64,000 bases of DNA from Rubrivivax sp. Its GTDB lineage: Bacteria > Pseudomonadota > Gammaproteobacteria > Burkholderiales > Burkholderiaceae_C. The stretch is taken from assembly GCA_022843905.1 (NCBI GenBank), contig JALHMT010000003.1:62001-126000 (forward strand), given 5' to 3'. The notes beneath the pieces are model-generated. The model saw only the letters and a program-made list of their open reading frames with translations. It searched no databases and was not told the origin of the DNA. Below are positions 19,122-59,209 of this stretch, piece by piece. The position numbers were made by a program, and so were the translations under genes. Positions within the stretch are counted from its first letter, which is position 1; the number at the start of each line of letters is the position of its first letter.

Positions 19122-19349
19122 TGTTTGTCCCCAACTTCTCCCGCGCTGACAACCCCGGGAGGCCATCGGCTCGGTCAGTCTTGGGCCCGTCGGCCACCTC
19201 AGGACATCCTGAGCTGACGATATGGGCGGATCCGGCACCCCTGCCTTGACTGGCCCCTGACCGCTGATCGCTCCGAGGCGCCAGACCGGCGCGGCTCGGA
19301 AGTTCTTACGAAGGCACATTCAAGACCGGAAGCACCGGCGAAGCCTTGC

Positions 19350-19379
19350 ATTATGCGCGGGATCGGTCCCCGGTGTCAA
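19350..19379 (-). promoter_or_regulatory. Sigma70-type promoter of the spc/alpha operon
   Basis: On the minus strand a perfect -35 TTGACA (19374-19379) is followed after 18 bp by CATAAT (19350-19355). Transcription would start near 19343 and give a leader of about 220 bases before rplN. It lies in the 383-bp divergent region between rplN and iorA. The rest of that region shows no gene; a CTCAGG-type short repeat (CCTCAGGACATCCTGAG) at 19197-19213 could form a small hairpin in the leader. Confidence 0.7.
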
Positions 19380-19504
19380 ACGGCTGCTCAGGGCACAGGC
19401 AGGCGCCCCAACCCATTGGGCCCGATCGGTGTAGGCAATTCTCCGGGGGCACACGATCCAGATTTCCGACGCATCATGCGCGATCACGGAAAAGCGAGGA
19501 CACG

Positions 19505-20005
19505 ATGGCTCGACTCAACGTCAATGGGCAGATGCGCGAGGTGAACGTCGAAGGCGACACACCGCTGCTGTGGGTGCTGCGCGAACAACTCGGCCTCACG
19601 GGCACCAAGTACGGCTGCGGCATCGCGCAGTGCGGATCCTGCACCGTGCATGTCGACGGCGCGCCGGTGCGCTCCTGCGCCCTGCCGGTGTCGGCGGTGC
19701 AGCCGAGCCAGAAGGTGGTGACGATCGAAGGGCTGTCGCGCGACGGGTCGCACCCGGCCCAGAAGGCCTGGGCGGCACTGGATGTGCCGCAGTGCGGCTA
19801 CTGCCAGAGCGGCATGATCATGGCCGCAGCCGCCTTGCTGAAGGCCAAGCCGCGACCCACCGATGCCGACATCGACGAAGCGATGACGAACATCTGCCGC
19901 TGCGGCACCTACAACCGGGTGCGCGCCGCCATCAAGGCCGCTGCCGGCGGCGACGCCAGGACCGCCGGTCTCGACATCATCCACATCACCCGGAGCGCGA
20001 CATGA
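19505..20005 (+). CDS. iorA: (2Fe-2S)-binding small subunit of an IorAB-type molybdenum hydroxylase
   Basis: A 166-residue protein with both iron-sulfur motifs of the xanthine dehydrogenase family. The plant-type cluster is [15 protein letters not shown] with a later Cys (residues about 39-60), and the helical second cluster is CGYCQSG and CRCGTY. It should relay electrons from the Mo site to an external acceptor. The start at 19505 has GAGGA upstream; the longer frame to 19346 is unlike the family. It overlaps the next gene by four bases (ATGA), as usual for a two-subunit enzyme without a flavin subunit. There is no export signal, so it is probably carried out with the Tat-targeted large subunit. 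The substrate is not known. Confidence 0.9.
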
Positions 20006-22176
20006 GCACCACCGTCTCCCGCCGCGAGTTCCTGGGCAGCGCCGCCGCGGCCGGCTCGCTGGTGGTCGGCTTCTCGGTGCCGACGGCCGCGTCGGCGCAG
20101 GCCGCGATGCCCGAAGTGAACGCCTGGGTGGTGGTGCAGCCCGACGATCGCGTGATCATCCGCATCGCGCGCTCGGAAATGGGCCAGGGTACGCTGACCG
20201 GCCTGGCCCAGCTGGTGGCCGAAGAGCTGGAGTGCGACTGGGCCCGGGTCACGACCGAGTACCCCACGCCGGGTCAGAACCTGGCGCGCAAACGCATCTG
20301 GGGCAACTTCTCCACCGGCGGCAGCCGCGGCATCCGCGAGTCGCAGGAGTACGTCCGCCAAGGTGGTGCCGCAGCGCGCATGATGCTCGTGCAGGCGGCC
20401 GCCGAAGAGTGGAAGGTGCCGGCGGCGGAATGCCGCGCGGAAAACAGCCGCATCAGCCACGCTGGGTCGGGCCGCAGCACCACTTACGGCAAGGTGGCAG
20501 CCGCGGCAGCCAGGCTGCCGGTGCCCGAGAAGCCCGCGCTGAAGGATCCGAAGGACTGGAAGCTGGTCGGCAAACGCCTGGCGCGGCTGGACACGGTCGA
20601 GAAGACCACCGGCGCACTGGTCTTCGGCAGCGACTTGAGCCTGCCGGGCATGCTGAATGCGGCCATCAAGGCCTGTCCGGTGTTCGGCGGCAAGGTCAAG
20701 AGCTTCGACGCCGCCGCCGTGACCAGCCGTCGCGGTGTCAGGAAGGTGGTGCGCGTGGGCGACTACGCGGTGGCCGTGGTGGCCGACACCTGGTGGCAGG
20801 CCAAGAAGGCCCTCGACGCGCTGCCCGTGCAGTGGGACGAAGGCGAACATGCGAACGCTTCGTCGGCTGCCTTCGCGCAGGTGATGAAGGCCGGTCTGGA
20901 CGCCGAGCAGGCGGCCGTGGGCAACCAGAACGGCAACCTCAAGGAAGCCATGGCGGGTGCGGCCCGCAGGATCGAAGCCGTCTACGGCTATCCGCACCAG
21001 AACCACGCCACGATGGAGACCATGAACGCCACGGTGCGCTGGACGCCGGAGCGCTGCGAGGTCTGGACCCCCACGCAGAACGGTGAAGCGGCGCTGGCTG
21101 CCGCCGCCGAGGCCGCCGGGCTGCCGCCGGCGCAATGCGAGGTCTACAAGCTGCCGCTGGGCGGTGGATTCGGCCGCCGCGGCGCCGTGCACGACTGGGT
21201 ACGCCAGGCCGTGGCCATCGCACGCGAGATGCCGGGCACACCGGTCAAGCTGATGTGGTCGCGCGAGGAGGACATGACGCACGGCCAGTACCACCCGGTG
21301 ATGCAGTGCAAGATGAGCGCAGGCCTCGACGCGCAGGGCAACATCACGGCGCTGCACATGCGGCTGTCGGGGCAGTCCATCCTGGCCGGCATCTTTCCCC
21401 AGAACGTGCGAGAGGGGCGCGATCCGGTGGCCTTCCAGGGCCTCAACGCCGGTGGCGGCGAGGCGATGATCGGCTACAGCTTCCCGAACCTGCTGATCGA
21501 CCACGCCATGCGCAACCCGCATGTGCCACCGGGCTTCTGGCGCGGCGTGAACCTGAACCAGAACGCGATCTTCCTGGAGTGTTTCCTCGACGAGGTGGCG
21601 CATGCCACCCGGCAGGACCCGCTTGCGCTGCGCCGACAGCTGATGGCGCGACATCCCAAGCACCTGGCAGTGCTGAACGCCGCCGCCGAGCGCGCCGGCT
21701 GGGGACAGCCGGCGCCCGACATCAACGGCCAGAAGGTCTTCCGGGGGCTGGCGCAGACGCACGGCTTCGGCAGCTACGTGGCCGCCTGTGCCGAGGTGTC
21801 GGTGAGTGCCGACGGCGAACTGAAGGTGCATCGCATCGTGGCCGCCACCGATCCGGGCCATGCCGTGAACCCGCAGCAGATCGAGGCCCAGGTCGAAGGT
21901 TCGTTCGTCTACGGCCTGTCGGCCGCGCTGTACGGCGAATGCACGGTGAAGAACGGCCGCATCGAGCAACAGAATTTCGACACCTACCCCGTCCTTCGCA
22001 TGAAGGACATGCCCAAGGTCGAGACCGTGCTGGTGGCTTCGGGCGGATTCTGGGGCGGTGTGGGCGAGCCCACCATCGCCGTGGCGGCGCCGGCGGTGCT
22101 CAACGCCATCTTCGCGGCCACCGGCAAGCGCGTGCGCGAGCTGCCGCTGAAGCACACCAGCCTCAAGCGGGCCTGA
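20002..22176 (+). CDS. iorB: Tat-exported molybdopterin-binding large subunit, IorB type
   Basis: A 724-residue molybdopterin-binding subunit. The N-terminus has a Tat signal, [19 protein letters not shown], with cleavage near ASAQA. Family blocks include [35 protein letters not shown], and the C-terminal [18 protein letters not shown], whose Glu is the catalytic base of this family. This layout matches isoquinoline 1-oxidoreductase and related periplasmic aldehyde dehydrogenases, which use c-type cytochromes rather than NAD. The gene starts inside the iorA stop and is followed after 26 bp by soxX, so the cytochromes of the adjacent sox genes are plausible acceptors. The substrate cannot be told from sequence. 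Confidence 0.88.
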
Positions 22177-22202
22177 GACGGGGCCACCGGCACGGATCGG
22201 CG

Positions 22203-22601
22203 ATGAGCTGGCTGGCCGCCCTGGTGCTGGGGGCCGTCGTGGTCGGCGACGGCATTCCCGAGCGCTTGACCGCACAGCCGGGCGACGTGCAGCGGGGGCG
22301 AAGCATCGTCGCCAGCCGGCAGGCGGGCCTGTGCCTGTTGTGCCACAGTGGCCCTTTTCCAGAAGAGCGCAGCATGGGCAACCTGTCGACGAACCTGGCC
22401 GGCGCCGGCAGCCGATGGACCGCAGCCCAGTTGCGACTTCGCGTGGTCGACGCGCGACGCGTCAACCCCGACAGCCTGATGCCGCCTTTCCATCGCATCG
22501 ACGGCCTGCAACGCGTCGGCTCGGCCTGGCAGGGTCGGCCCGTGCTCGACGCCCAGCAGGTCGAGGACGTGGTCGCCTTCCTGATGACCCTGAAGGACTG
22601 A
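22203..22601 (+). CDS. soxX: SoxX-type monoheme c-type cytochrome (first sox locus)
   Basis: A 132-residue cytochrome with a short signal region, a heme motif CLLCH followed by SGPFPEERSMGNL, and a C-terminal DAQQVEDVVAFLMTL. The pattern GDVQRGRSIVASRQAGLCLL is the SoxX signature of Paracoccus-type proteins. It pairs with SoxA to form the SoxXA enzyme that couples a thiol-bound substrate to the SoxY cysteine. The axial methionine is likely in NPDSLMPPFHR. It follows iorB by 26 bp and precedes soxY by 6 bp. It differs markedly from the SoxX at 54136, which is longer and a lipoprotein. Confidence 0.9.
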   Translation: MSWLAALVLGAVVVGDGIPERLTAQPGDVQRGRSIVASRQAGLCLLCHSGPFPEERSMGNLSTNLAGAGSRWTAAQLRLRVVDARRVNPDSLMPPFHRIDGLQRVGSAWQGRPVLDAQQVEDVVAFLMTLKD

Positions 22602-22607
22602 GGCCCG

Positions 22608-23054
22608 ATGACCCCTGCCCTGTCACGACGCGACTGCCTGGCCCTGGGCGCGATGAGCCTGGTCGCGCTGCCACCTGCCCAGGCCACGCCCGAGGCCCTG
22701 GCCGCGGCGGTGCGCCTCTTCGCCGCCGGCGCCGTGCCGCGTGAAGGCCGCGTCAAGCTCGACATCGCGCCGCTGGTGGAGAACGGCAACACCGTGCCCG
22801 TGACGATCACGGTCGACAGCCCGATGACCGCAGACGACCACGTGCGCAGCATCGCGCTCTTCAACGAACGCAATCCGCAGCACGACGTGGCTGTCTTCAC
22901 GCTGGGCCCGCGCGCCGGCAGGGCGAGTGTCGCCACGCGCATCCGGCTGGCCACTTCCCAGCGTCTGGTGGCGCTGGCACGCATGTCCGACGGCAGCGTC
23001 TGGCAGCACGAGGTGGCCGTGGTCGTCACGCTGGCGGCGTGCGTGGAAAGCTGA
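22608..23054 (+). CDS. SoxY-like carrier with altered C-terminal arm (AACVES)
   Basis: A 148-residue SoxY homologue with a Tat-like start (LSRRDCLALGAMSLVAL) and the SoxY beta-sandwich, including GNTVPVTITVDSPMTADDHV. Standard SoxY ends in the flexible GGCGG arm whose Cys carries the sulfur substrate. Here the end is TLAACVES, so the Cys is kept but the glycines are replaced and three residues follow it. This matches the paralogue family described as SoxY-related AACIE-arm protein (TIGR04487), by recall. The window also has a canonical SoxY at 52300. The gene is 6 bp after soxX and 1 bp before soxZ, so it must work with these partners. Its substrate is probably not thiosulfate alone. Confidence 0.85.
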   Translation: MTPALSRRDCLALGAMSLVALPPAQATPEALAAAVRLFAAGAVPREGRVKLDIAPLVENGNTVPVTITVDSPMTADDHVRSIALFNERNPQHDVAVFTLGPRAGRASVATRIRLATSQRLVALARMSDGSVWQHEVAVVVTLAACVES

Positions 23055-23055
23055 C

Positions 23056-23379
23056 ATGACCCTGCGCACCATCATCGCCATGCCGCGCAGCGCCCGACGC
23101 GGCGAGGTGATCGAGATCCGCACCACGGTTGCGCACGTCATGGAAAGCGGCCACCGCGTCGACGCCAACGGTCGCACGTTGCCGCGCAGCATCCTGCGGC
23201 GCTTCGAATGCCGGTACGACGGCGAACTGGTGTTCGCGGCCGACCTGCATCCGGCCATCGCCGCCAACCCCTTCATCGGCTTCCACACCGTGGCCGTGTC
23301 CAGCGGCAGCTTGAGCTTCAGCTGGCGGGGCGACGACGGCGTCTCGCACACCGAGACCGTCGCACTCACCGTGACATGA
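23056..23379 (+). CDS. soxZ: SoxZ-like partner of the altered SoxY
   Basis: A 107-residue immunoglobulin-like protein without a signal peptide. It has the SoxZ hallmarks RRGEVIEIRTTVAHVMESGHR and PRSILRRFECRYDGELVFAA. SoxZ dimerises with SoxY and is exported with it by the Tat route. The start at 23056 is one base after the soxY stop, and the stop overlaps the soxA start (ATGA). In canonical SoxZ the first block reads HEMETG; here it is HVMESG, so the interface appears conserved. The N-terminal metal or ligand residues were not checked further. Confidence 0.88.
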   Translation: MTLRTIIAMPRSARRGEVIEIRTTVAHVMESGHRVDANGRTLPRSILRRFECRYDGELVFAADLHPAIAANPFIGFHTVAVSSGSLSFSWRGDDGVSHTETVALTVT

Positions 23380-24188
23380 GGCTGGAGGATCGTGCCAGGC
23401 TGACGGCCCTGGTCGCCGCCGCCCTGGCGGGCGTCACGGCAGTTGCCGCCAGCGCGCTGGCGCAGGCTCCGCTGCAGGGTCGGACAGCCGCCCCGCGCTC
23501 GGGCCAGGAGTTCATGTCGCAGGCCACGCGCAGCATGCAGCGCGACGATTCGCTCAACCCCGGCATGCTGTGGGTGCGCGAAGGCGAGCAGCTGTGGTCG
23601 ACGGCACCGCGCACGGGCAGCCCCAGCTGCGCGGGCTGTCACGGCGATGCGGCGCGCAGCATGAAGGGCGTGGCGCCCCGCTACCCCGCGCACGACGACG
23701 TGCTGGACCGCGCCGTCAACCTGGGGCAGCGCATCGACCAGTGCCGTCACCGCCACCAGCAACTGCCGCTGCCCGCCGCCGAGACGCCGCAACGCCTGGC
23801 GCTCGAGACCTTCGTGGCGCACCAGTCTCGCGGGCTGCCACTGGCGCCGCCCGGCGGGGCCAGGATGGACGCCGAGCGTGAACGCGGCCGCGCGCTGTTC
23901 CAGCAGCGATTCGGCCAGCTCGACCTGTCCTGCGCGATGTGCCACGACGGCAATGCAGGGGGGCGCCTCGGCGGCAGCACCATCCCGGAAGGCCACGCCA
24001 ACGGCTACCCGAGCTACCGCCTGGAGTGGCAGGACCTGGGCTCGCTGCAGCGCCGGCTGCGCAACTGCATGGTCGGCGTGCGCGCCCAGCCCTTCGGGTT
24101 CGACTCGCCCGAGGTGGTGGCGCTGGAATCCTGGCTGCAGCAGCGCGGACGAGGCTTGACGATGGAGACGCCCGCCGTGCGACCGTGA
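23376..24188 (+). CDS. soxA: SoxA-type diheme c-type cytochrome (first sox locus)
   Basis: A 270-residue protein with a signal peptide (ALVAAALAGVTAVAASALAQA) and two heme motifs, CAGCH and CAMCH. This marks the diheme type of SoxA. The active-site Cys, which is persulfurated in studied SoxA enzymes, should be the one in RNCMVGVRAQPFGF. It forms SoxXA with the SoxX encoded three genes upstream. The SoxA of the second locus (53311) has only one CxxCH. It overlaps soxZ by four bases and is the last gene of this operon; the next gene begins 47 bp later. Confidence 0.9.
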   Translation: MRLEDRARLTALVAAALAGVTAVAASALAQAPLQGRTAAPRSGQEFMSQATRSMQRDDSLNPGMLWVREGEQLWSTAPRTGSPSCAGCHGDAARSMKGVAPRYPAHDDVLDRAVNLGQRIDQCRHRHQQLPLPAAETPQRLALETFVAHQSRGLPLAPPGGARMDAERERGRALFQQRFGQLDLSCAMCHDGNAGGRLGGSTIPEGHANGYPSYRLEWQDLGSLQRRLRNCMVGVRAQPFGFDSPEVVALESWLQQRGRGLTMETPAVRP

Positions 24189-24235
24189 TGCACTGCTGCC
24201 CGGCCGCAACCACGGGAGGTCGCGGCCCGGGCATC

Positions 24236-24805
24236 ATGCGCATCATGAACGCCTTGCCCGACGACGACACCGTGATCGCCGACACCCGCCTGTGGCTGGA
24301 GCGCGCGGTGATCGGCCTGAACCTCTGCCCCTTCGCCAAGGCCGTGCACCAGAAAGGGCAGGTGCGCTTCGTCGTGAGCCAGGCGCACGACCCGCAAGCT
24401 CTCGCCGAGGACCTGGCTCGCGAACTGCAGCACCTGGCCGCCGTGCCGTCCGAACAGACCGACACCACGCTGCTGGTGCACCCCCGGGTGCTGCAGGACT
24501 TCCCCGATTACAACGACTTCCTCGACGTGGCCGACGCGCTGCTCGACCAACTGGGCCTCGAGGGCGTGCTGCAGGTGGCCAGCTTCCACCCCGACTACCG
24601 CTTCGAAGGCACCGGGCCCGACGACGTCGGCAACTGCAGCAACCGCTCGCCCTGGCCCACGCTGCACCTGCTGCGCGAAGACAGCATCGAACGCGCCGTG
24701 CTGGCCTTCCCGGATGCCGCCGAGATCTACGAGCGCAACATCGAGACGCTGGAGTCGCTGGGCTGGGAAGGCTGGCGCAAGCTGCACACCGACTCCCGCC
24801 ACTGA
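24236..24805 (+). CDS. DUF1415 family protein
   Basis: A 189-residue conserved protein of unknown function. It has the DUF1415 block LERAVIGLNLCPFAKAVH, a central region ending in QVASFHPDYRFEGTGPDDVG and NRSPWPTLHLLREDSIERAV. No signal peptide or membrane helix is visible, so it is probably cytoplasmic. The Cys in LCPFAK and the His/Asp-rich HPDYRFEG segment are candidate metal or redox residues, by inference only. The start could also be the ATG at 24245. It follows soxA by 47 bp on the same strand, but the family is widespread in gammaproteobacteria and betaproteobacteria without sox genes, so a functional link is not implied. Confidence 0.85.
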   Translation: MRIMNALPDDDTVIADTRLWLERAVIGLNLCPFAKAVHQKGQVRFVVSQAHDPQALAEDLARELQHLAAVPSEQTDTTLLVHPRVLQDFPDYNDFLDVADALLDQLGLEGVLQVASFHPDYRFEGTGPDDVGNCSNRSPWPTLHLLREDSIERAVLAFPDAAEIYERNIETLESLGWEGWRKLHTDSRH

Positions 24806-27631: not shown

Positions 27632-28153
27632 TCAGGGCTGCTGCGCGCGGGTTCGCCGGCGCAGCCCGGCCAGGCCCGCCAGCAGACCGGCGGCCAGCCA
27701 GGCGGTGCCCGGCTCCGGCAGTTCGGTCATTCGCGGTGTGTAGACGATGCTGCCGTTGCCCGCATCGTTGCCCCCGAAGTCATACGAAAAGAACGCCGCA
27801 AACGGCCCGCTGGCCGGCAGGAAGGCGAAGGTGGCGTCACCCAGATCCAGCCCGACGAAGTTGCCGTTCTCGAACACGGCGCTGGCGTAATCCAGGTCCG
27901 CCTTGGCGAAGGGCCCACCCACGAACGAAAAATCGAAGGACGACAGCTCGAACAGATCGCCGCCGAAGGGGCTGGCCACGGGCACCTGGGCGTCGTCGTA
28001 GGAGAAGCTGCCGGCGAAGCTCTGGCCTGCCAGGCTGGCGTTGACGCTGTCGATGGTCACGCTGAAGGAGTAGCTGACGGTCGCTGCGTGCAGCGCCGGA
28101 GCCGCCAGCGCCAGGGTGACGGCCGACAGGGTGCCGATGAGGATGTTCTTCAT
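27632..28153 (-). CDS. PEP-CTERM sorting domain-containing protein
   Basis: A 173-residue exported protein. The N-terminus is a signal peptide (ILIGTLSAVTLALAAPALHA), the middle a beta-rich domain with many Phe and Gly residues, and the C-terminus the PEP-CTERM sorting signal: LPEPGTAWLAAGLLAGLAGL followed by RRRTR. Such proteins are processed by exosortase (EpsH) and linked to extracellular polysaccharide production. No exosortase is in the window. It starts 31 bp after the giant nuclease gene on the same strand and may be co-transcribed with it. The function of the middle domain is not recognised. Confidence 0.88.
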   Translation of the reverse strand: MKNILIGTLSAVTLALAAPALHAATVSYSFSVTIDSVNASLAGQSFAGSFSYDDAQVPVASPFGGDLFELSSFDFSFVGGPFAKADLDYASAVFENGNFVGLDLGDATFAFLPASGPFAAFFSYDFGGNDAGNGSIVYTPRMTELPEPGTAWLAAGLLAGLAGLRRRTRAQQP

Positions 28154-32762: not shown

Positions 32763-33043
32763 GAGGTGTGTGCGGTGGCTGGGTGAAGGTGCAGACGAAT
32801 CTATGCACGGATCATGCCGATCTGATGACAGTTGTTGCTCTGTGTATGCATCACCCCGCAACCAGGGGGTGGGGTCAACACCCAGGCAACGCCGGCATGA
32901 TCAGCGACGCTCCCGGGCCGCTGTGACACCAGGTCGTCGAAGCCCCGACACGCCACCGATCGAACGGTTCACCAGAGGGTGCCCCGGGGTCGTTGGCTCG
33001 CTGACCCATCGAGGCCAGGCGCCCCGGCTTCTCTCACACCGCC

Positions 33044-49610: not shown

Positions 49611-49724
49611 GCCGTGGCCGGCGCGGGCCGGTCAGCCGCCTCCGCGACCGCCGGCATCCGAAGCGCCTTCGGTGTTTACCCCCATTACGGAAACGGTTGG
49701 GTTCTATATATTTGTCTGTGCTGA

Positions 49725-49734
49725 TATTCGAATA
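49725..49734. promoter_or_regulatory. Perfect palindrome upstream of soxC
   Basis: TATTCGAATA is a perfect 10-bp palindrome in an AT-rich stretch (49691-49740) between the BLUF gene and soxC. ArsR-family repressors of sox and sulfide genes bind similar AT-rich dyads, and an ArsR gene ends this locus at 63220. The link is an inference. A clear sigma70 promoter could not be fixed. Confidence 0.4.
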
Positions 49735-49770
49735 GTCACTCCCCCACGGAGGCCCTTCCGGGCACGACCC

Positions 49771-51144
49771 TTGAACGACACACCCGACGTCGGCCGCCTG
49801 ATCAAGGCCCCCGAAAGCTTTCTGGATGCCGCCGGCATCCGCCAGGTGAACACGGAGGCCAAGGCTGGCCGGCGCGACTTCATCCGCCAGGCCTTCGCTG
49901 CGGCCGCCGCCGGTGCCGCCGCACCGCTGGCGCTGGCACAAGGCAACCCCGTCCCCAGTGAAGGCGGGGACCCGAACATCCTCCAGCTGCCTGCCCACAC
50001 CACGGGCCTGGGGCAGCCGGTGGTCACCGACGGCTACGGCAAGCCCTCGCGCTACGAGGCCAACGTGCAGCGCCGCCAGAGCCCGGGTCTGACGCAGACG
50101 ACCCAGGCCTCGGTGTCCTTCGCGCCGCTGCAGTCGCTGTTCGGCATCGTCACCCCCAGCGGCCTGCACTTCGAGCGCCATCACCAGGGCTGGTGGGACA
50201 TCGACCCTTCCAAGCACCGGCTGATGATCAATGGCAGCGACGCGTCGATGCTGAAGACCCCCAAGGTCTTCACGATGGACGAGCTCATGCGCCTGCCCTC
50301 GGTGAGCCGCTTCCACTTCATCGAATGCGGCGCCAACACCGGCATGGAATGGGGCAACGTGGCCGTGCCCACCTGCCAGTACAGCCACGGCATGCTGAGC
50401 TGCAGCGAGTTCACCGGCGTGCCGCTGAAGATCCTGCTCGACATGGCCGGCGCCGACTACAAGCGCTGCCGCTTCGTGCTGGCAGAAGGCGCCGACGGCT
50501 CGTCGATGACGCGCACCATCCCGATGGAGATGGTGGAGTCGGGCGAGGTGCTGGTGGCCTATGGCCAGAACGGCGAGATGCTGCGGCCCGAGAACGGCTA
50601 CCCGCTGCGCCTGGTGGTGCCGGGCGTGCAGGGTGTGAGCTGGGTGAAGTACCTGCGCCGCATCGAAGTGGGTGACAAGCCCTGGGGCACCAAGGACGAG
50701 GCCATCCACTACATCGACCTGATGCCCGACGGCCGCCATCGACAGTACAGCAGCATCCAGGAATGCAAGAGCGTGGTGACCACGCCTTCGGGCGGCCAGG
50801 TGCTGCTCGACAAGGGCTTCTACAACATCAGCGGCCTGGCCTGGTCGGGGCGCGGCAAGGTCAGGCGCGTGGACGTCTCCGTCGACGGCGGACGCAACTG
50901 GCGCACCGCGCGCCTGCAGGGGCCGGTGCTGGACAAGTGCCTGACGCGCTTCAACATCGACTGGGTGTGGGACGGCAAGCCGGCGCTCATCCAGAGCCGC
51001 GCGATGGACGAGACCGGCTACGTGCAGCCCACGTACCGCCAGCTGCGCCAGGTGCGCGGCTCGCGGTCGATCTATCACAACCATGCAATCCAGACCTGGC
51101 TCGTACAGGACAGCGGAGAGGTCAAGAATGTCCAGCTGTCGTGA
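49771..51144 (+). CDS. soxC: Sulfane dehydrogenase molybdopterin subunit SoxC
   Basis: A 457-residue Tat-exported molybdoprotein of the sulfite oxidase fold. The Tat motif is GRRDFIRQAFAAAAAG, followed by an Ala-rich region. The Mo-binding Cys is in HFIECGANTGMEWG. SoxCD oxidises the sulfane sulfur held on SoxY so that thiosulfate goes to sulfate without storing sulfur. The start is uncertain: the frame is open to 49672 (GTG), but TTG at 49771 gives LNDTPDVGRLIKAPESF, which fits the family best. It overlaps soxD by 17 bases. Confidence 0.9.
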   Translation: MNDTPDVGRLIKAPESFLDAAGIRQVNTEAKAGRRDFIRQAFAAAAAGAAAPLALAQGNPVPSEGGDPNILQLPAHTTGLGQPVVTDGYGKPSRYEANVQRRQSPGLTQTTQASVSFAPLQSLFGIVTPSGLHFERHHQGWWDIDPSKHRLMINGSDASMLKTPKVFTMDELMRLPSVSRFHFIECGANTGMEWGNVAVPTCQYSHGMLSCSEFTGVPLKILLDMAGADYKRCRFVLAEGADGSSMTRTIPMEMVESGEVLVAYGQNGEMLRPENGYPLRLVVPGVQGVSWVKYLRRIEVGDKPWGTKDEAIHYIDLMPDGRHRQYSSIQECKSVVTTPSGGQVLLDKGFYNISGLAWSGRGKVRRVDVSVDGGRNWRTARLQGPVLDKCLTRFNIDWVWDGKPALIQSRAMDETGYVQPTYRQLRQVRGSRSIYHNHAIQTWLVQDSGEVKNVQLS

Positions 51145-52213
51145 ACGCCTGCTGAAGGCCGCTGCAGCCGCCGCGCTGGTCCTGTCGGCCGCCGGCACGC
51201 TGGCCCAGACCACGACCTACCCCGGCATCGGCCGGCCCGCCACGGTCAAGGAAGTCCAGGCCTGGGACATCGACGTGCGCCCCGACTTCAAGGGCCTGCC
51301 CAAGGGGTCGGGCACGGTGGCCAAGGGCATGGACGTCTGGGAAGCCAAGTGCGCGTCCTGCCACGGCATCTTCGGCGAGAGCAACGAGATCTTCTCGCCG
51401 CTGATCGGCGGCACGACCGCCGACGACATCAAGACCGGCCGCGTGGCCAAGCTGCTCGACCCCGCCTTTCCCGGCCGCACCACGCTGATGAAGGTGCCGA
51501 CGGTGGCCACGCTGTGGGACTACATCAACCGCGCGATGCCCTGGAACCAGCCCAAGTCGCTGAGCACCGAAGAGGTCTACGCGGTGACGGCCTTCATGCT
51601 GAACCTCGGCGGCGTGCTGCCCGACAACTTCACGCTGTCTGACCAGAACATCGCCGAAGTCCAGAAGCGCATGCCCAACCGCAACGGCATGAGCACCGAC
51701 CACGGGCTGTGGCCCGGCCGCAGCCTGGGCAACGGCGGCCGACCCGACGTCAAGGCCGTGGCCTGCATGAGCGGCTGCGCCACCGAGGCGACGGTGGCCT
51801 CCTTCCTGCCCGACCATGCGCGCAACGCACACGGCAACCTGGCCGAGCAGAACCGCATGGTGGGGGCGCAGCATGGCGCCGACACGACGCGGCCGGCCGG
51901 CGCACCGATCACGCCGGGCGCGGCCCCCGCAGCTCCCCCGGGTCCGGACGGCACCGCGGCGTCTACTCGGTCTTTGCTGACGAAGCACAATTGCCTGACC
52001 TGCCATGGCGTCGACCGCAGGGTGGTGGGTCCGGGCCTGGAGGAGATCGCACGAAAGTACACCGGGCAGTCCGACGCCCTGTCGTACCTGACCAAGAAGA
52101 TCGTCGAGGGCAGCACGGGGGTCTGGGGCGCGATTCCCATGCCGCCGCAGACCCTGCCGGCGGCCGATGCACAGGCCATTGCCAAGTGGCTGGCCGACGG
52201 CGCACGGAAGTGA
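51128..52213 (+). CDS. soxD: Diheme cytochrome SoxD
   Basis: A 361-residue diheme cytochrome with a signal peptide (LLKAAAAAALVLSAAGTLAQ). Heme motifs are CASCHGIFGE near residue 77 and CLTCHGVDRRVVGPG near 295, joined by a Pro/Ala-rich linker (PGAAPAAPPGPDGTAAS). It accepts the electrons from SoxC. The ATG at 51128 has GGAGAGG upstream and lies within the soxC 3' end. Full length for the family. Confidence 0.93.
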   Translation: MSSCRERLLKAAAAAALVLSAAGTLAQTTTYPGIGRPATVKEVQAWDIDVRPDFKGLPKGSGTVAKGMDVWEAKCASCHGIFGESNEIFSPLIGGTTADDIKTGRVAKLLDPAFPGRTTLMKVPTVATLWDYINRAMPWNQPKSLSTEEVYAVTAFMLNLGGVLPDNFTLSDQNIAEVQKRMPNRNGMSTDHGLWPGRSLGNGGRPDVKAVACMSGCATEATVASFLPDHARNAHGNLAEQNRMVGAQHGADTTRPAGAPITPGAAPAAPPGPDGTAASTRSLLTKHNCLTCHGVDRRVVGPGLEEIARKYTGQSDALSYLTKKIVEGSTGVWGAIPMPPQTLPAADAQAIAKWLADGARK

Positions 52214-52299
52214 CCGATGCGATGCGCCCATGGGGTAGCCCCCGGGTTGCCGCGGACGAAGAGTCGAACATGAACCAACCAAAGCTGAAGGAGCAAGAC

Positions 52300-52758
52300 A
52301 TGCACACGAGACGCGAGATGCTGGCCCGCAGCGCCCAGGTCGCCAGCCTGCTGGCTGCGGCTGGGCTGCTGCCTCAGGCAGCCATGGCGGCCTGGGCCCA
52401 GGCCGCCTTCGAGGCCAAGAACATGGCCGACGTGGCCAAGGCGCTGGGCGGCAGCGCACCGGTCGAAAGCAAGGACGTCACCATCAGCGGCCCCGACATC
52501 GCCGAGAACGGCGCCGTGGTGCCGGTGGGTTGTGCCACCACGCTGCCTGGCGTGAAGCGCCTGCTGCTGCTGGTGGAGAAGAACCCCAGCGTGCTGGCGG
52601 CCGTGTTCGACGTCACCGACGCCGTCGACGCCAGCTTCAACGCGCGCGTGAAGATGGGCCAGTCGTCCAACGTCATGGCCGTGGCGATGATGGGCGACGG
52701 CCGCGTGCTGTTCGCGCAGAAGGAGATCAAGGTCACGCTGGGCGGCTGCGGCGGATGA
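52300..52758 (+). CDS. soxY: Sulfur carrier SoxY with canonical GGCGG arm
   Basis: A 152-residue SoxY with a Tat-like signal (TRREMLARSAQVASLLAAAG) and the carrier arm TLGGCGG at the C-terminus, whose Cys binds the sulfur substrate. An AAGGAG lies seven bases ahead of the ATG at 52300; an in-frame ATG at 52270 has a weaker site. It follows soxD by 86 bp. A GC-rich dispersed repeat separates it from soxZ. Confidence 0.95.
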   Translation: MHTRREMLARSAQVASLLAAAGLLPQAAMAAWAQAAFEAKNMADVAKALGGSAPVESKDVTISGPDIAENGAVVPVGCATTLPGVKRLLLLVEKNPSVLAAVFDVTDAVDASFNARVKMGQSSNVMAVAMMGDGRVLFAQKEIKVTLGGCGG

Positions 52759-52763
52759 GGACA

Positions 52764-52854
52764 GTGAGCCCCCGAGCTCGCATTCGCTCGCTACCCCCCA
52801 GGGGGGCCGTTCGCCAGCGGACCGGCGGAGCCGGATCCGCGGCTTCTGCTTGAT
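52764..52854. repeat. Short member of a GC-rich intergenic repeat family, between soxY and soxZ
   Basis: It contains CCCCCCAGGGGGG, CCAGCGG, CGGCGGAGCCGG, a TCCGCG core and GCTTGAT in the same order as the 3' half of the longer repeats at 57077 and 59021. The left half is different. It divides two genes that must be made in equal amounts. Confidence 0.6.
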
Positions 52855-52905
52855 CGCTGGTTAGCTACAGCGCTTGTTTCGAACACAGATTGAAGGAGAA
52901 AAGAC

Positions 52906-53217
52906 ATGGCAGACCCGATGCGCATTCGCGCCCAAGCCGCCGGTGACAAGGCCACCGTGCGTGTACTGATGAGCCACGAGATGGAAACCGGCCTGCGCAA
53001 GGACTCGGCCGGCAAGACCATCCCGGCCTGGTTCATCCAGGAAGTCACCGCCGCGCACAACGGCAAGCAGGTGCTCAGCGCCCAGTGGGGCCCCTCGGTG
53101 GCGAAGAACCCCTTCCTGCAGTTCAACGTGAAGGGCGCCAAGGCCGGCGACAAGATCACCGTGAACTGGGTCGACAACAAGGGCGACAAGCGCACCGACG
53201 AAGCGACCGTGACCTGA
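52906..53217 (+). CDS. soxZ: Sulfur carrier partner SoxZ
   Basis: A 103-residue SoxZ without signal peptide. It carries VRVLMSHEMETGLRKDSAGK and WFIQEVTAAHNGKQVLSAQW, both diagnostic. It forms the SoxYZ heterodimer and is exported with SoxY. GGAG is eight bases before the ATG. The last residues TDEATVT are typical. It is the canonical partner; the SoxZ at 23056 is its divergent paralogue. Confidence 0.95.
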   Translation: MADPMRIRAQAAGDKATVRVLMSHEMETGLRKDSAGKTIPAWFIQEVTAAHNGKQVLSAQWGPSVAKNPFLQFNVKGAKAGDKITVNWVDNKGDKRTDEATVT

Positions 53218-53227
53218 GGCATTTGCG

Positions 53228-53252
53228 CCCTGCGCCGCCACGCGGCGCAGGG
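53228..53252 (+). other. Strong hairpin between soxZ and soxA
   Basis: CCCTGCGCCGC and GCGGCGCAGGG make a perfect 11-bp stem with a 3-base loop, followed by ACTGTTCCTCCC. It begins 11 bp after the soxZ stop. It may act as a partial terminator or a 3' stabiliser that sets a different level for soxCDYZ and soxAX. Confidence 0.6.
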
Positions 53253-53310
53253 ACTGTTCCTCCCGATGCGGCACTCGATTGCCGCGCGGTACACCGAGCA
53301 CACTGGAGAC

Positions 53311-54117
53311 ATGGCGCGCATGAAGACCCTGACCCTGGCCCTCGCGGCCCTGCTGGCGGCCACGGCCGCCCACGCACAACCCAAGTCGACCGCCGACGGC
53401 ATCGCCGAGTACCGCAAGATGCTCGAGGACGGCAACCCCGCCGACCTCTTCGAGGCCAAGGGCGAGGACCTCTGGAAGAAGAAGCGCGGGCCGCTCAACG
53501 CATCGCTGGAGAAGTGCGATCTCGGCAAGGGCCCTGGCGTCGTCAAGGGCGTCTTCGTCGAGCTGCCGCGCTGGTTCGAGGACACGAAGAAGGTGCAGGA
53601 CCTGGAAACGCGCCTGGTCACCTGCATGGAGAAGCTGCAGGGCTTCAACGCCGCCGAGATCGCCAAGACCCCGTTCGGGCGCGGCGAGCAGGCCAACGTC
53701 ACGGCACTGGCCACCTGGATTGCCGCGGAGTCGCGCGGCATGCGCTTCAACCTGCCGCAGAAGCACATCGAGGAACGCAAGAGCTACGAGATCGGCAAGC
53801 GCGTGTTCTATTTCCGCGGCGGGCCGATGGACTTCTCCTGCGCCTCGTGCCACGGCGAGGCCGACAAGCGCATCCGCCTGCAGGACCTGCCCGACCTGAC
53901 GAAGAACCCGGGCGACGGCATCGGCTTTGCAGCCTGGCCGGCCTACCGCGTCAGCAACGGCCAGATGTGGAGCATGCAGTTGCGGCTGAACGACTGCTAT
54001 CGCCAGCAGCGCTTTCCCTACCCCGGCTTCGGCTCGGAGGTCACCATCTCGGTGGCAACCTACATGGGCGTCAACGCCAAGGGCGCCAAGAGCATCGCCC
54101 CGGCCATCAAGCGCTGA
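53311..54117 (+). CDS. soxA: Cytochrome SoxA, monoheme type
   Basis: A 268-residue SoxA with signal peptide (LTLALAALLAATAAHAQ) and a single heme motif, FSCASCHGEADKR. At the place of the first heme in diheme SoxA it has LEKCDLGKGPG and VTCMEKLQG, a Cys pair expected to form a disulfide. The active-site Cys is in RLNDCYRQQRFPYPGFG. ATG at 53311 or 53320 is possible; the long frame from 53266 is unlikely. It forms SoxXA with the product of the next gene, 18 bp downstream. Confidence 0.93.
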   Translation: MARMKTLTLALAALLAATAAHAQPKSTADGIAEYRKMLEDGNPADLFEAKGEDLWKKKRGPLNASLEKCDLGKGPGVVKGVFVELPRWFEDTKKVQDLETRLVTCMEKLQGFNAAEIAKTPFGRGEQANVTALATWIAAESRGMRFNLPQKHIEERKSYEIGKRVFYFRGGPMDFSCASCHGEADKRIRLQDLPDLTKNPGDGIGFAAWPAYRVSNGQMWSMQLRLNDCYRQQRFPYPGFGSEVTISVATYMGVNAKGAKSIAPAIKR

Positions 54118-54135
54118 CGCAGCGGAGCAACTCTC

Positions 54136-54783
54136 ATGACCTCGAAACCGATTCTCTTCGCCGCTGTCGGCACCACGCTGCTGGCCATCGCCGGCTGTGC
54201 ATCGCTGCCATCATCGGCCGACCTCGACCGCGAAGCGCTGGCCCTCATCAAGGCTTCGTTCCGCGACCAGGGCATCGCCAAGGTCGATCGCCTGAACCAG
54301 GACCTCGGGCAGTCCGCCTGCTCGTCGGACAAGCCGCCCAGCGACGCGGTGGCCGAGCGCGTGATGAACGACGCGCGCGCCGCCGTGAAGTGGCCGGCGG
54401 GCAACCAGTACATCGGCGATTGGCGCGAGGGCGAGAAGATCGCCCAGAACGGCCGCGGCATGACCTGGACCGACAACTCCACGGCACCCAGCGCCAACGG
54501 CGGCAGTTGCTACAACTGCCACCAGATCGACAAGGCCGAGATCTCCTACGGCACCATCGGACCCAGCCTGCACCACTACGGCAAGAACCGCGGCGTGACC
54601 GATCCGGCGTCGGCGCTGTCGCTGCCGATCGTGCAGTACACCTGGTCGAAGATCTACAACGGAAAGACCTACAACGCCTGCTCCAACATGCCGCGTTTCG
54701 GTCACATGGGTCTGCTCGATGAGACGCAGATGAAGCACCTGATGGCGCTGCTGCTCGACCCGAAGTCGCCGGTCAACCAGTGA
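54136..54783 (+). CDS. soxX: Cytochrome SoxX, lipoprotein type
   Basis: A 215-residue monoheme SoxX with a lipobox, LLAIAGC, so it may be held to a membrane. The heme motif is GGSCYNCHQIDKAEISYG, and the axial Met is likely in CSNMPRFGHMG. It is longer than the SoxX at 22203 by a helical N-terminal region. It forms SoxXA with SoxA. The gene is followed 32 bp later by a terminator-like hairpin. Confidence 0.93.
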   Translation: MTSKPILFAAVGTTLLAIAGCASLPSSADLDREALALIKASFRDQGIAKVDRLNQDLGQSACSSDKPPSDAVAERVMNDARAAVKWPAGNQYIGDWREGEKIAQNGRGMTWTDNSTAPSANGGSCYNCHQIDKAEISYGTIGPSLHHYGKNRGVTDPASALSLPIVQYTWSKIYNGKTYNACSNMPRFGHMGLLDETQMKHLMALLLDPKSPVNQ

Positions 54784-54815
54784 CGTCGGTGTCCTGAGCT
54801 CGAAGCCCTGACCCC

Positions 54816-54840
54816 GAAAGCCCGGCCTGACCGGGCTTTC
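54816..54840 (+). terminator. Rho-independent-type terminator after soxX
   Basis: GAAAGCCCGG and CCGGGCTTTC form a perfect 10-bp stem around a 5-base loop, ending in CTTTCTTCGG. It closes the soxCDYZAX transcript and separates it from soxB, which begins 30 bp later. Confidence 0.8.
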
Positions 54841-54853
54841 TTCGGCCCAAAAC

Positions 54854-54869
54854 ATAAGCCACGACTTAT
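54854..54869. promoter_or_regulatory. Inverted repeat abutting the soxB start
   Basis: ATAAG and CTTAT face each other over six bases and end one base before the soxB ATG. No Shine-Dalgarno sequence is visible in this stretch. It could be an operator or a small structure at the initiation site. Confidence 0.35.
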
Positions 54870-54870
54870 C

Positions 54871-56616
54871 ATGAATCTGAGCAAGCGCGATTTCCTGCAG
54901 GTGCTGTCGGCCGCCTCGGTGGCGGGCATGGCCCTGGCGAAGTACGAAAACGCCGACGCCGCCACCGCAGAGAAGGGCCTGTACGACCTGCCGCCGCTGG
55001 GCAGCGGCCCGGGTTTCGTCAGCTTCCTGCACATGACCGACTGCCACGCGCAGCTCAAGCCCATCCACTTCCGCGAGCCCAGCGTCAACCTGGGCCTGGC
55101 CGGCATGCAGGGCCAACTGCCCCACCTGGTGGGCGAACACCTGCTGAAGAAGGCCGGCATCCGTCCCGGCACGGCGCAGGCGGCGGCCTTCACCTACATC
55201 GACTTCGAGCGCGCGGCCCGTCGCTACGGCAAGGTGGGCGGCTTCGCCCATCTGGCCACGCTGGTCAAGCGCCTGAAGGCCAGCCGACCCGGCGCGCTGC
55301 TGCTGGACGGCGGCGACACCTGGCAGGGCAGTGCGACTTCGCTGTGGACCAACGCCCAGGACATGGTCGATGCCTGCAAGGCGCTGACGGTCGACGTGAT
55401 GACCGGCCACTGGGAATTCACCTACGGCATGAAGCGCGTGAAGGAGATCATCGACCAGGACTTCAAGGGCTCCATCGACTTCGTGGCGCAGAACGTCAAG
55501 ACCTCCGACTTCGGCGACCCGGTGTTCGCGCCCTACGTGATCCGCGAGATGAACGGCGTCAAGGTGGCCATCGTCGGCCAGGCCTTCCCCTACACGCCGA
55601 TCGCCAACCCGCGCTACATGGTGGCCGACTGGGAGTTCGGCATCCAGGACGAGAACCTGCAGAAGATGGTCGACGAGGCGCGCGGCAAGGGTGCGCAGGT
55701 CGTGGTGGTGCTGAGCCACAACGGCATGGACGTCGACCTGAAGATGGCCAGCCGCGTGCGCGGCGTGGACGCCATCTTCGGCGGCCACACGCACGACGGC
55801 GTACCGCTGGCCGTGCCCGTCACCAACCCGGGCGGCACCACCCTGGTGACCAACGCCGGCAGCAACGGCAAGTTCCTGGGCGTGATGGACTTCGAGGTCA
55901 AGGGCGGCAAGGTGAGCAACTTCCGCTACCGCCTGCTGCCGGTCTTCGCCAACATGCTCAAGGCCGACCCGGCGATGGACGCACTGATCACCAAGGTGCG
56001 TGCGCCCTATGAAGCCAAGCTCGCCGAGAAGCTGGCCGTGACCGACGGCCTGCTGTTCCGCCGCGGCAACTTCAACGGCAGCTGGGACCAGCTGCTGTGC
56101 GACGCGCTGATGGACGTGCAAGGCGCCGAGATCGCCTTCAGCCCGGGCTTCCGCTGGGGCACCAGCCTGTTGCCGGGCGACACCATCACTCGGGAGCTGA
56201 TGATGGACCAGGTGGCCATCACCTACCCCTACGCCACGCTCACGCAGATGAGCGGCGAGATGGTCAAGACCGTGCTCGAGGACGTGGCCGACAACCTCTT
56301 CAACCCCGACCCCTACTACCAGCAAGGCGGCGACATGGTGCGCGTGGGTGGTCTGCAGTACACCATCGCGCCGAACGAAAGGATGGGCTCGCGCATCAGC
56401 GACATGCGCCTGGGCGGCAAGCCTGTCGAAGCCGGCAAGACCTACAACGTGGCCGGCTGGGCACCGGTGGCCGAAGAAGCCTCGAAGGCCGGCAACAAGC
56501 CCGTGTGGGACGTGGTCGAGACCTGGCTGAAGAGCCAGAGCGGCGGCCGCGTCAAGGCACGCAGCATCAACACGCCCAGGCTGGTCGGCGTACAGGGCAA
56601 CCCCGGGCTGGCATGA
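54871..56616 (+). CDS. soxB: SoxB sulfate thiohydrolase
   Basis: A 581-residue dimanganese hydrolase of the 5'-nucleotidase family. Metal-site motifs are FLHMTDCHAQ near residue 50, LLDGGDTWQGSATSLWT, MTGHWEF, VLSHNGMD and GGHTHDG. It releases sulfate from the SoxY-bound intermediate. The N-terminal SKRDFLQVLSAASVAGM is Tat-like with KR in place of RR. The gene has its own 5' region behind a terminator and lacks an obvious ribosome site, so its translation control may be unusual. Length is normal. Confidence 0.97.
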   Translation: MNLSKRDFLQVLSAASVAGMALAKYENADAATAEKGLYDLPPLGSGPGFVSFLHMTDCHAQLKPIHFREPSVNLGLAGMQGQLPHLVGEHLLKKAGIRPGTAQAAAFTYIDFERAARRYGKVGGFAHLATLVKRLKASRPGALLLDGGDTWQGSATSLWTNAQDMVDACKALTVDVMTGHWEFTYGMKRVKEIIDQDFKGSIDFVAQNVKTSDFGDPVFAPYVIREMNGVKVAIVGQAFPYTPIANPRYMVADWEFGIQDENLQKMVDEARGKGAQVVVVLSHNGMDVDLKMASRVRGVDAIFGGHTHDGVPLAVPVTNPGGTTLVTNAGSNGKFLGVMDFEVKGGKVSNFRYRLLPVFANMLKADPAMDALITKVRAPYEAKLAEKLAVTDGLLFRRGNFNGSWDQLLCDALMDVQGAEIAFSPGFRWGTSLLPGDTITRELMMDQVAITYPYATLTQMSGEMVKTVLEDVADNLFNPDPYYQQGGDMVRVGGLQYTIAPNERMGSRISDMRLGGKPVEAGKTYNVAGWAPVAEEASKAGNKPVWDVVETWLKSQSGGRVKARSINTPRLVGVQGNPGLA

Positions 56617-56647: not shown

Positions 56648-57070
56648 ATGAGCCCCCGCAAGCTGTTCGCTGCCCTCCTGGCGGCCCTCTCGATCGGCGT
56701 GGCCGCACCGGCCTTCGCGCAGGACAGCGTCGTCTACCACGTCGACGACATGTCGCTGCAGGCGCTCAAGGGCCTGCGCAACATCCGCAACCACCTCGAT
56801 GTCGACCCCGCCGCGAAGATCATCGTGGTGACGCACGCGCTGGGCATCGACTTCCTGCTCGAAGGCGCCAAGGACATCAACGGCAGTGCCTTCGCGGGGC
56901 CGGTGGCGGCCCTGGTGGCGCGCGGCGTGAAGTTCGAGATCTGCGAGATCACGCTGAGGAACCGCAACATGAAGCGCGAGCAGTTCATTCAGGAGGCCGA
57001 GTTCACGCCGTCCGGCGTGGTGCGCCTGGCCAAGCTGCAGAAGCAGGGCGCGGCCTACATCAAGCCGTAG
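56648..57070 (+). CDS. Periplasmic DsrE-like protein
   Basis: A 140-residue protein with a signal peptide (LFAALLAALSIGVAAPAFAQ) and a DsrE/F-like fold: VVYHVDDMSLQALKGLRNI, AKIIVVTHALGIDFLLEGA and FEICEITLRNRNMKREQF. DsrE-type proteins move sulfur through a Cys; here the Cys in FEICEIT is the candidate. It is 31 bp after soxB with a GGAG at its start, so it shares that operon. The exact role in sulfur oxidation is not established. Confidence 0.85.
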   Translation: MSPRKLFAALLAALSIGVAAPAFAQDSVVYHVDDMSLQALKGLRNIRNHLDVDPAAKIIVVTHALGIDFLLEGAKDINGSAFAGPVAALVARGVKFEICEITLRNRNMKREQFIQEAEFTPSGVVRLAKLQKQGAAYIKP

Positions 57071-57076
57071 GAAATG

Positions 57077-57236
57077 GACCACCCGCTACGCGCTTCGCGC
57101 GCCCTCCCGCGTGAAATCGCGGGAGGGCCTTCGCCAGGCACGGGACGCCTTCCAGCGTCCCATGTCCGGGCTCAGCCCACCTCAAGGGGGCAACGCCAGT
57201 GGCCCGGCAAAGCCGGCTCCACGGCGTTTGCTTGAT
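57077..57236. repeat. Dispersed 160-bp intergenic repeat, copy 1
   Basis: It matches 59021-59180 with about 8 differences in 160 bases, same orientation. Inside are a perfect 10-bp hairpin (CCCTCCCGCG/CGCGGGAGGG) and a 7-bp hairpin (GGGACGC/GCGTCCC). An open frame runs through it into the following transporter gene. It falls between the DsrE-like and transporter genes. Confidence 0.85.
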
Positions 57237-57245
57237 CAGGCAGCA

Positions 57246-59020: not shown

Positions 59021-59180
59021 GACCACCCCCTACGCGCTTCGCGCGCCCTCCCGCGTGAAGTCGCGGGAGGGCCTTCGCCAGGCACGGGACGCCTTCCAGC
59101 GTCCCATGTCCGGGCTCAGCCCACCTCAAGGGGGCAACGCCAGCGGCCCGGCGGAGCCGGTTCCGCGTCGTTTGCTTGAT
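59021..59180. repeat. Dispersed 160-bp intergenic repeat, copy 2
   Basis: About 95% identical to copy 1 at 57077. It begins one base after the cytochrome c4 stop and ends just before a further hairpin. The reading frame through it continues antisense to fccB and is not a gene. Confidence 0.85.
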
Positions 59181-59183
59181 GCG

Positions 59184-59209
59184 GCGCCCAACCGCTTCGC
59201 GGTGGGCGC
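59184..59209. terminator. Hairpin between convergent cytochrome c4 and fccB
   Basis: GCGCCCA-A-CCGC and GCGG-TGGGCGC pair with one bulge and a TTC loop. Its place between two convergent genes suggests a bidirectional stop, but there is no T-run on either strand. Confidence 0.45.

Follow-up and report, generated by a model that had tools for sequence, protein, structure and literature searches.

Molybdenum (Mo) hydroxylases such as IorAB, PaoABC and the membrane aldehyde dehydrogenase 8gy3 combine [2Fe-2S] and molybdenum cofactor (Moco) subunits, and those of the IorAB and 8gy3 type are periplasmic and have no flavin adenine dinucleotide (FAD) subunit. According to the available part of the source, the IorAB-type aldehyde oxidase of Pseudomonas putida has a cytochrome subunit and no Sox protein (PMC7188995). 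The canonical Sox system consists of SoxXA, SoxYZ, SoxB and SoxCD; thiosulfate is loaded onto the cysteine of SoxYZ by SoxXA acting together with SoxB (accessible part of PMC11582611). SoxYZ-like carriers encoded beside periplasmic carbon-compound dehydrogenases have been described as well: the accessible text of a recent SoxY survey presents soxYZ-S2 and S4 as quinoprotein-dehydrogenase-associated carriers and reports SoxYZ types that adjoin pyrroloquinoline quinone (PQQ) alcohol, methanol and formate dehydrogenases (PMC11237559), and the ped cluster of P. putida is a further case (PMC12997753). Thus, a carrier joined to a dehydrogenase is already known by gene neighbourhood, and what is new here is a Mo hydroxylase as the partner enzyme. 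The locus in question is a six-gene operon, iorAB-soxXYZA, in a stretch of 64,000 nucleotides (the window) from contig JALHMT010000003.1 of Rubrivivax sp. (assembly GCA_022843905.1), and comparison with other genomes revealed that the pairing of iorAB with soxYZ is a conserved module. In the available part of a study on SAR324, flavocytochrome c is placed beside soxYZ and an isoquinoline oxidoreductase appears separately, with no link drawn (PMC4782131). Among the matches listed from the open-access literature, outside which most subscription papers lie, no account pairing iorAB with soxYZ was found.

The operon consists of the following genes:

19505..20005, forward strand: iorA, small [2Fe-2S] subunit of a xanthine-oxidase-family Mo hydroxylase
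20002..22176, forward strand: iorB, Moco subunit, with an RR N-terminus (of the twin-arginine translocation (Tat) type, by eye), GGGFGRR at residue 387 and FWGGVGEP at residues 683–690
22203..22601, forward strand: soxX, monoheme cytochrome c (TIGR04485) with a CxxCH motif
22608..23054, forward strand: soxY of the AACIE-arm type, carrier with the tail LAACVES and the swinging-arm cysteine C145 (TIGR04487)
23056..23379, forward strand: soxZ, partner of SoxY (PF08770)
23376..24188, forward strand: soxA, diheme cytochrome c with the active-site Cys231 in NCMVGVR (TIGR04484)

The iorA and iorB genes share four bases (ATGA), soxX starts 26 bp after the end of iorB, the soxX-soxY and soxY-soxZ gaps are 6 and 1 bp, and soxZ and soxA overlap by four bases. 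The genes, order, overlaps and gaps are those that had been given by a sequence-only reading of the window. No terminator-like site was found at 19200–24450, where 2.0 were expected; based on the overlaps, the gaps of 1–26 bp and this result, a single transcript from iorA to soxA is predicted. A near-consensus (11/12) sigma-70 promoter-like site is found at 19350–19379 on the minus strand; it points away from iorA into ribosomal protein genes, so that iorA is divergent from the ribosomal operon. The genome assembly comprises 186 contigs with a contamination of 5.06%. A chance adjacency or an assembly join is ruled out, because related genomes and complete replicons show the gene order as well.

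In a sample of 399 genomes of the same order, a TIGR04487 search with a threshold of at least 113 bits, set at a gap in the score list (113.7 to 101.4), gave 75 matches in 67 genomes, the window's included, and in 25 of the genomes the curated cut-off of 172 bits was exceeded. IorB was found within 6.5 kb of 66 of the 74 other SoxY matches (63 on the same strand, 3 divergent), and within the same distance lay SoxZ in all 74 loci, SoxX in 48, SoxA in 45 and SoxC in one. At 26 of the 74 loci, four of which end no more than 1.2 kb past soxY (L114, L209, L215, L227), IorAB and SoxYZ occur without SoxX or SoxA in that range. A second set, the titled loci, comprises the best 80 of 472 when ranked by resemblance to the query and thus leans to close relatives; two of these loci represent DNA that is also among the 74. 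Within 7 kb, IorB was found in 78, IorA in 69, SoxX in 80, SoxZ in 80 and SoxA in 78 of the 80 titled loci, and ten of those without IorA, L082 (without IorB) and both of those without SoxA end too soon. In the locus L034 (5280–9960), iorAB-soxX and soxYZA are about 4.7 kb apart with other sequence between them, and iorAB stays with soxX. Polaromonas, Massilia, Duganella, Rubrivivax, Bradyrhizobium, Microvirga, Ancylobacter and Telmatospirillum are represented among the titled loci, and the pairing is also present in relatives of the window's own genus (L168–L171). Adjacency confined to this strain, which would have spoken against the sequence-only reading, is thereby contradicted.

The arm of SoxY separates the loci outside the order. 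In a phylum sample of 398 genomes, in which stretches of 10–18 kb were inspected, 30 matches at 1e-30 were obtained outside the order. All 15 with an AAC or SAC arm have iorA, iorB and soxXYZA on one strand (ten of the 15 come from one family and nine from one genus), whereas none of the 15 with a GGCG arm (L269, L270, L290–L302) has IorB, and SoxB is found beside 13 of these. The genomes G720, G759 and G799 contain both kinds of SoxY, each with its own neighbours. Two of the GGCG-type loci, L302 and L297, have an FccB-like gene near SoxYZ; no SoxB or IorAB is found in their 17 kb. Thus, iorAB beside soxXYZA with an AACxE-type SoxY, the combination for which a survey had been proposed, is conserved.

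The annotated plasmid matches comprise 58 records, three of which were compared. The plasmid of Methylobacterium sp. NMS14P carries eight consecutive genes, for a (2Fe-2S) protein, Mo subunit, cytochrome c, FAD oxidoreductase, SoxX, AACIE SoxY, SoxZ and SoxA; on the plasmid of Roseomonas marmotae, the cytochrome and FAD genes are placed after soxA. The module is also present on a plasmid of Neorhizobium galegae (L271), where iorB is annotated as nothing and spans two frames, which reflects either an error or a decayed gene; likewise, iorB of L161 (G012:C11) has an in-frame TAG. L124 (G103:C41) contains a complete iorAB-cytochrome-FccB-soxXYZA locus and, about 5 kb away, another IorAB pair that is truncated by the contig end. 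Open reading frames (ORFs) of the neighbourhoods were clustered for 80 and then for 120 loci, and ten neighbouring or variant proteins were identified by Pfam. In the 120 loci, the recurrent neighbours besides the module genes are FccB (46) and a small cytochrome c (14), while ATP-binding cassette ATPases (25), TctC receptors (23) and chemoreceptors (16) represent, by the look of their sequences, broad paralogous families. No shared extra partner was recognised in these neighbourhoods.

Family profile searches found two [2Fe-2S] domains in IorA and both Moco domains in IorB, which together with the glutamate of GxGEP place the enzyme in the xanthine oxidase family. The eight cysteines of IorA are kept in 134–136 of 136 rows, and the glutamate, E689, in at least 97% of the 113 rows of the IorB subfamily (which include at least four repeats of one same protein) and in 12/12 paralogs. 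IorB is far below the cut-off of every matched NCBIfam equivalog (best, 173 bits against 780), and the nearest solved chain is 8gy3_C, an aldehyde dehydrogenase large subunit (E-value, 5.8e-76). The name IorAB, used by the sequence-only reading, is therefore loose, and the label of isoquinoline 1-oxidoreductase reflects homology only. A tree was computed for 70 of the 125 full-length IorB proteins, with supports from the Shimodaira–Hasegawa-like approximate likelihood ratio test (SH-aLRT). In it, a branch with 100% support has on one side 58 proteins: every one of the 54 that are linked to SoxYZ, plus four more (a duplicate of a linked protein, one from a short locus, that of the split locus L034 and an additional copy in G002); 12 paralogs lie on the other side. 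No Sox gene was found beside the unlinked paralogs within flanks of about 1.5 kb.

The two sides of the tree also differ in a short signature. F683 and W684, located directly before the E689 loop, are conserved in 99–100% of the 113 subfamily rows and in 0/12 unlinked paralogs. The FWGG of this signature aligns to KPTG in 8gy3_C, and the loop, which by general knowledge of the family we take to lie at the active site, carries the catalytic glutamate. FWGG is also present in L280 and L281, whose IorB is 45% identical and is found beside SoxYZ and SoxA, and one unlinked copy (L288) has the form PWGG. Judged from the tree and these alignments, the IorB linked to SoxYZ is a distinct subfamily with a partner-specific signature. 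Compared with IorAB, PaoABC and 8gy3, it thus forms a subfamily of its own with FWGG before GEP, and Sox cytochromes replace the cytochrome subunit of the dehydrogenase.

The carrier differs from the canonical one as well. The SoxY of the window scored 212.9 bits against TIGR04487 ('SoxY-related AACIE arm protein'; curated cut-off, 172) and is a member of that family, while the score for true SoxY (TIGR04488) was 85.4 bits, below the cut-off of 125; the tail LAACVES has the A-A-C-x-E arm and lacks GGCGG. NCBI names this type 'AACIE arm protein' without assigning a function, and the tie to a Mo hydroxylase comes from the present analysis. The profile of the quinoprotein-associated carriers (TIGR04557; cut-off, 140) gave 55.4 bits for SoxY and 30.6 bits for SoxZ. 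Both systems place a SoxYZ-like carrier beside a periplasmic enzyme acting on carbon compounds, but the quinoprotein-associated carriers are fused SoxYZ proteins found with PQQ enzymes and SoxH, whereas the module has separate SoxY and SoxZ, SoxXA and a Mo enzyme. As far as the available part of the SoxY survey indicates, sequences without a GGC motif were discarded before its tree was built, so that SoxY of the AACIE type would be dropped (PMC11237559).

The arm cysteine is present in all of the 154 distinct SoxY rows (in which the SoxY of the window is counted twice), and 136 have E or D two residues later. Seventeen of the 18 others (GCG, CGL, ACGG, etc.) come from loci without SoxXA nearby; the remaining one, from L151, ends in GGCGG and has SoxXA but no IorB. 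A cytochrome c domain precedes a SoxA-type domain in a 414-aa protein encoded beside SoxYZ at L151:8166-9410, which resembles a SoxX-SoxA fusion. SoxZ of the window matches PF08770 (84.4 bits; cut-off, 25) and is just short of the TIGR04490 cut-off (72.8 against 76); SoxX matches TIGR04485 (75.6 bits; cut-off, 61) with no Pfam match at 0.001, and SoxA matches TIGR04484 (195.3 bits; cut-off, 110). The CxxCH of SoxX is conserved in 129/129 rows, both heme motifs of SoxA in 122–123 of 123, and Cys231 of SoxA in all 119 rows bearing a letter at that position (121 distinct rows). As in canonical Sox, the hemes, the SoxA cysteine and the SoxY arm cysteine are intact, and the motifs suggest a functional SoxXA; what differs is the arm (AACxE/D as a rule against GGCGG) and the presence of a xanthine-oxidase-family Mo enzyme instead of SoxB. 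The conserved SoxXA cysteine suggests a disulfide-linked rather than a thioester-linked substrate. For 105 loci (two of them counted twice), the correlation between the pairwise IorB and SoxY distances is 0.80, a value to which shared descent contributes; for SoxY and SoxZ it is 0.82.

At the level of genomes, an IorB of the subfamily (at least 725 bits, two IorB candidates being scored per genome) and a SoxY of at least 113 bits were both found in 65 of the 399 genomes, IorB alone in seven, SoxY alone in two and neither in 325 (Fisher p 5.6e-64, with kinship ignored, although genomes within one group do not count as independent). Among the seven genomes with IorB alone, G097 has a SoxY of 101 bits, and a pattern search found no FWGG signature in G248, G319, G329 and G271; among the two with SoxY alone, G368 has an adjacent IorB on a short contig (L227). 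The joint function of IorAB and the Sox proteins proposed by the sequence-only reading is thus well supported by the conserved linkage, the co-occurrence and the partner-specific signature of IorB.

The part of that proposal which made SoxXA the main electron acceptor is weakened, as is SoxXA as a fixed partner of IorAB, because SoxXA is missing nearby at 26 of the 74 loci at which SoxZ is always present. Nevertheless, SoxA was detected somewhere in the genome in 32 of 33 carriers, and in the exception (G210) the contig of the operon ends after soxZ; SoxXA therefore seems to be needed, though not tied to IorAB.

The thiosulfate pathway appears to be dispensable for the module. SoxB was found within 6.5 kb of none of the 74 same-order loci, and SoxB, SoxC and SoxD were found within 7 kb of none of the 80 titled loci. 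In 14 of the 38 genomes of titled loci tested, which were chosen for spread and not at random, no SoxB exceeded the cut-off; ten of these 14 are not titled as metagenome-assembled genomes. Isolates of Duganella aquatilis, Pseudoduganella flava and Ancylobacter defluvii are examples of carriers without SoxB. A single SoxA above the cut-off was found in every one of the 14, and by its coordinates it is that of the operon in 13; in the other (L075), soxA of the operon is cut by the contig end and the SoxA match lies on another contig. In the genomes G012, G060, G181, G242, G005, G140 and G100, there is likewise no SoxB over the cut-off, and a single SoxA lies beside the SoxY of the operon. SoxC exceeded the cut-off in three of the 18 genomes tested, namely the window's, G403 and G140, that is, in two of the 17 SoxB-lacking carriers. 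Gaps in draft assemblies may hide genes, but it is unlikely that so many SoxB were missed. Thus, the carriers without SoxB over the cut-off indicate that the module can act without the thiosulfate Sox pathway. According to the available part of the source, thiosulfate oxidation in Bradyrhizobium diazoefficiens needs only soxY1 of its two soxY genes and not soxY2 (PMC5748708). The soxY2 gene is located in a second sox locus and is probably the soxY of such a module.

A further clue comes from flavocytochrome c, which oxidises sulfide or persulfide. FccB is encoded at 44 of the 80 titled loci, preceding soxY in 27 of them and following soxA in 17, and lies between the module genes in 14 of the 15 out-of-order loci with an AAC or SAC arm. 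It has sulfide-dehydrogenase domains, and two cysteines, presumably a redox disulfide, are conserved in 46/46 members of the cluster, three of which come from outside the module. Where present, FccB argues for sulfur chemistry at SoxY.

Based on the linkage, the distinct IorB subfamily, the distinct SoxY arm, the conserved catalytic residues and the genomes that lack SoxB and mostly lack SoxC, the reading we favour, held tentatively at somewhat less than an even chance, is that of a dedicated periplasmic system in which the Mo hydroxylase acts on a substrate bound to the SoxYZ carrier. SoxXA would attach a small thiol oxidatively to the cysteine of SoxY as a mixed disulfide, and IorAB, exported by the Tat route, would hydroxylate or oxidise the carbon part of the carried molecule. 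The unstable product would then give an oxidised carbon compound and a SoxY persulfide, from which FccAB, where present, or another route may take off the sulfur and free SoxY, the electrons passing to c-type cytochromes. The Mo enzyme family of IorAB hydroxylates carbon, and the substrates of the Mo enzyme are probably carbon compounds; the carried substrate is probably an organosulfur compound rather than thiosulfate. In its full extent, the proposal is of an undescribed and widespread periplasmic pathway of soil and freshwater Alpha- and Betaproteobacteria, independent of SoxB, in which a Mo hydroxylase of the xanthine oxidase family, the first in that family to depend on a carrier, acts on substrates held by a swinging arm and cleaves small thiols (methanethiol-like compounds or other organosulfur compounds) between carbon and sulfur; in this extent it is a possibility that we regard as doubtful.

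Several observations weigh against substrate-bound catalysis by IorAB on SoxYZ. IorB is not found nearby at eight of the 74 same-order loci (L125, L132, L151, L158, L165, L166, L208, L222); in L222, only 0.5 kb separates soxY from the contig end at which the locus begins, and the IorB of the same genome is at the end of another contig, and both halves are present at separate places in G169, G131, G263 and G349. G141 and G224 have an FWGG IorB without a SoxY of the AACIE type, and G382 is a true exception, with this type of SoxY and no subfamily IorB at 1e-150. FccB is near only two of the 74 same-order loci and is missing from the module of the window, and is thus clearly not obligatory. SoxB over the cut-off is commoner in carriers (48/67) than in non-carriers (137/332; p 6.7e-6), so that there may be a link to thiosulfate oxidation. 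To our knowledge, members of the enzyme family do not act on protein-bound substrates or on alkyl C–H bonds next to sulfur.

As a side observation, L165 and L166 (from G131 and G263) have no IorAB; their soxXYZA genes include a soxY of the ACLDA type and are located a few kb from genes resembling soxCD. Both genomes have IorAB-SoxYZ elsewhere.

Among the alternatives, mere co-regulation without a shared intermediate fares best, though we consider it unlikely. Another enzyme would split an organosulfur compound, yielding an aldehyde and reduced sulfur; IorAB would oxidise the free aldehyde, and SoxXYZA, with FccAB where it occurs, would handle the sulfur; this agrees with an aldehyde dehydrogenase subunit being the nearest solved relative of IorB and with the presence of FccB at more than half of the titled loci. 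However, the splitting enzyme was not recognised among the recurrent neighbours, most of whose ORF clusters are unnamed, the FWGG signature follows the linkage to SoxYZ, and SoxYZ accompanies IorAB at the 26 loci without nearby SoxXA. An exchange of SoxCD for IorAB, with IorAB oxidising SoxY-bound sulfane sulfur as part of an inorganic sulfur pathway, is also improbable. SoxCD is itself a Mo enzyme, IorAB is surrounded by SoxXA and partly by FccAB, and SoxC is rare in the SoxB-lacking carriers (G403 and G140); nevertheless, we know of no xanthine-oxidase-family enzyme that oxidises sulfur, nothing known would release sulfate from SoxY without SoxB, and the genome of the window has SoxCD as well.

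There is little probability that the connection lies in electron transfer only, with IorAB oxidising a free aldehyde or N-heterocycle and passing the electrons to SoxXA, SoxYZ being a passenger. The operon has no FAD subunit, so that a cytochrome acceptor is expected, and the heme motifs of SoxX and SoxA are intact; yet the constant neighbour is SoxYZ and not SoxXA, and the SoxY cysteine is invariant. It is very improbable that SoxYZ serves the enzyme by delivering persulfide sulfur that restores the Mo sulfido ligand in the periplasm, as the unlinked IorB paralogs have no Sox gene in their flanks of about 1.5 kb and we know of no precedent for SoxYZ sulfurating Mo, even though the xanthine oxidase family needs a cyanolysable Mo sulfur and the signature adjoins the catalytic loop.

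If the favoured mechanism of a carrier-bound substrate is true, a large Mo enzyme family would gain a reaction that depends on a carrier, and organosulfur turnover in soils and fresh water would gain a new route. Annotation tends to take soxXYZA as a capacity for thiosulfate oxidation; since here soxXYZA has another arm and occurs with a Mo hydroxylase in genomes without SoxB, such calls would be wrong there. The signatures FWGGxGEP and AACxE provide a direct handle for searching for the module.

The window also contains a canonical system:

49672..56616, forward strand: canonical cluster soxC-D-Y(GGCGG)-Z-A-X-B, separate from the module and recognised by SoxB and SoxC profile scores
59220..60530, reverse strand: SoxF/FccB-like flavoprotein gene near the canonical cluster; elsewhere such a gene can sit within the iorAB-sox module

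This cluster is located 25 kb downstream of the six-gene operon, and its SoxB (54880–56589) and SoxC scored 862 and 595 bits, respectively. The genome therefore carries both systems, and the statement of the sequence-only reading that SoxB and SoxCD are lacking holds for the operon and not for the window. The module as a piece of the canonical cluster was ruled out, because carriers lacking SoxB retain the module. Near the canonical cluster, a 187-nt direct repeat (57055–57241 and 58999–59185; 89% identical, 1944 apart) flanks YeeE/SoxT-like and cytochrome-like genes. Closer to the operon, a small secreted protein encoded at 27632–28153 on the minus strand ends, by eye, in a PEP-CTERM-like sorting signal, and is adjoined by a very long ORF (28185–32861) whose product has the look of an extracellular nuclease.

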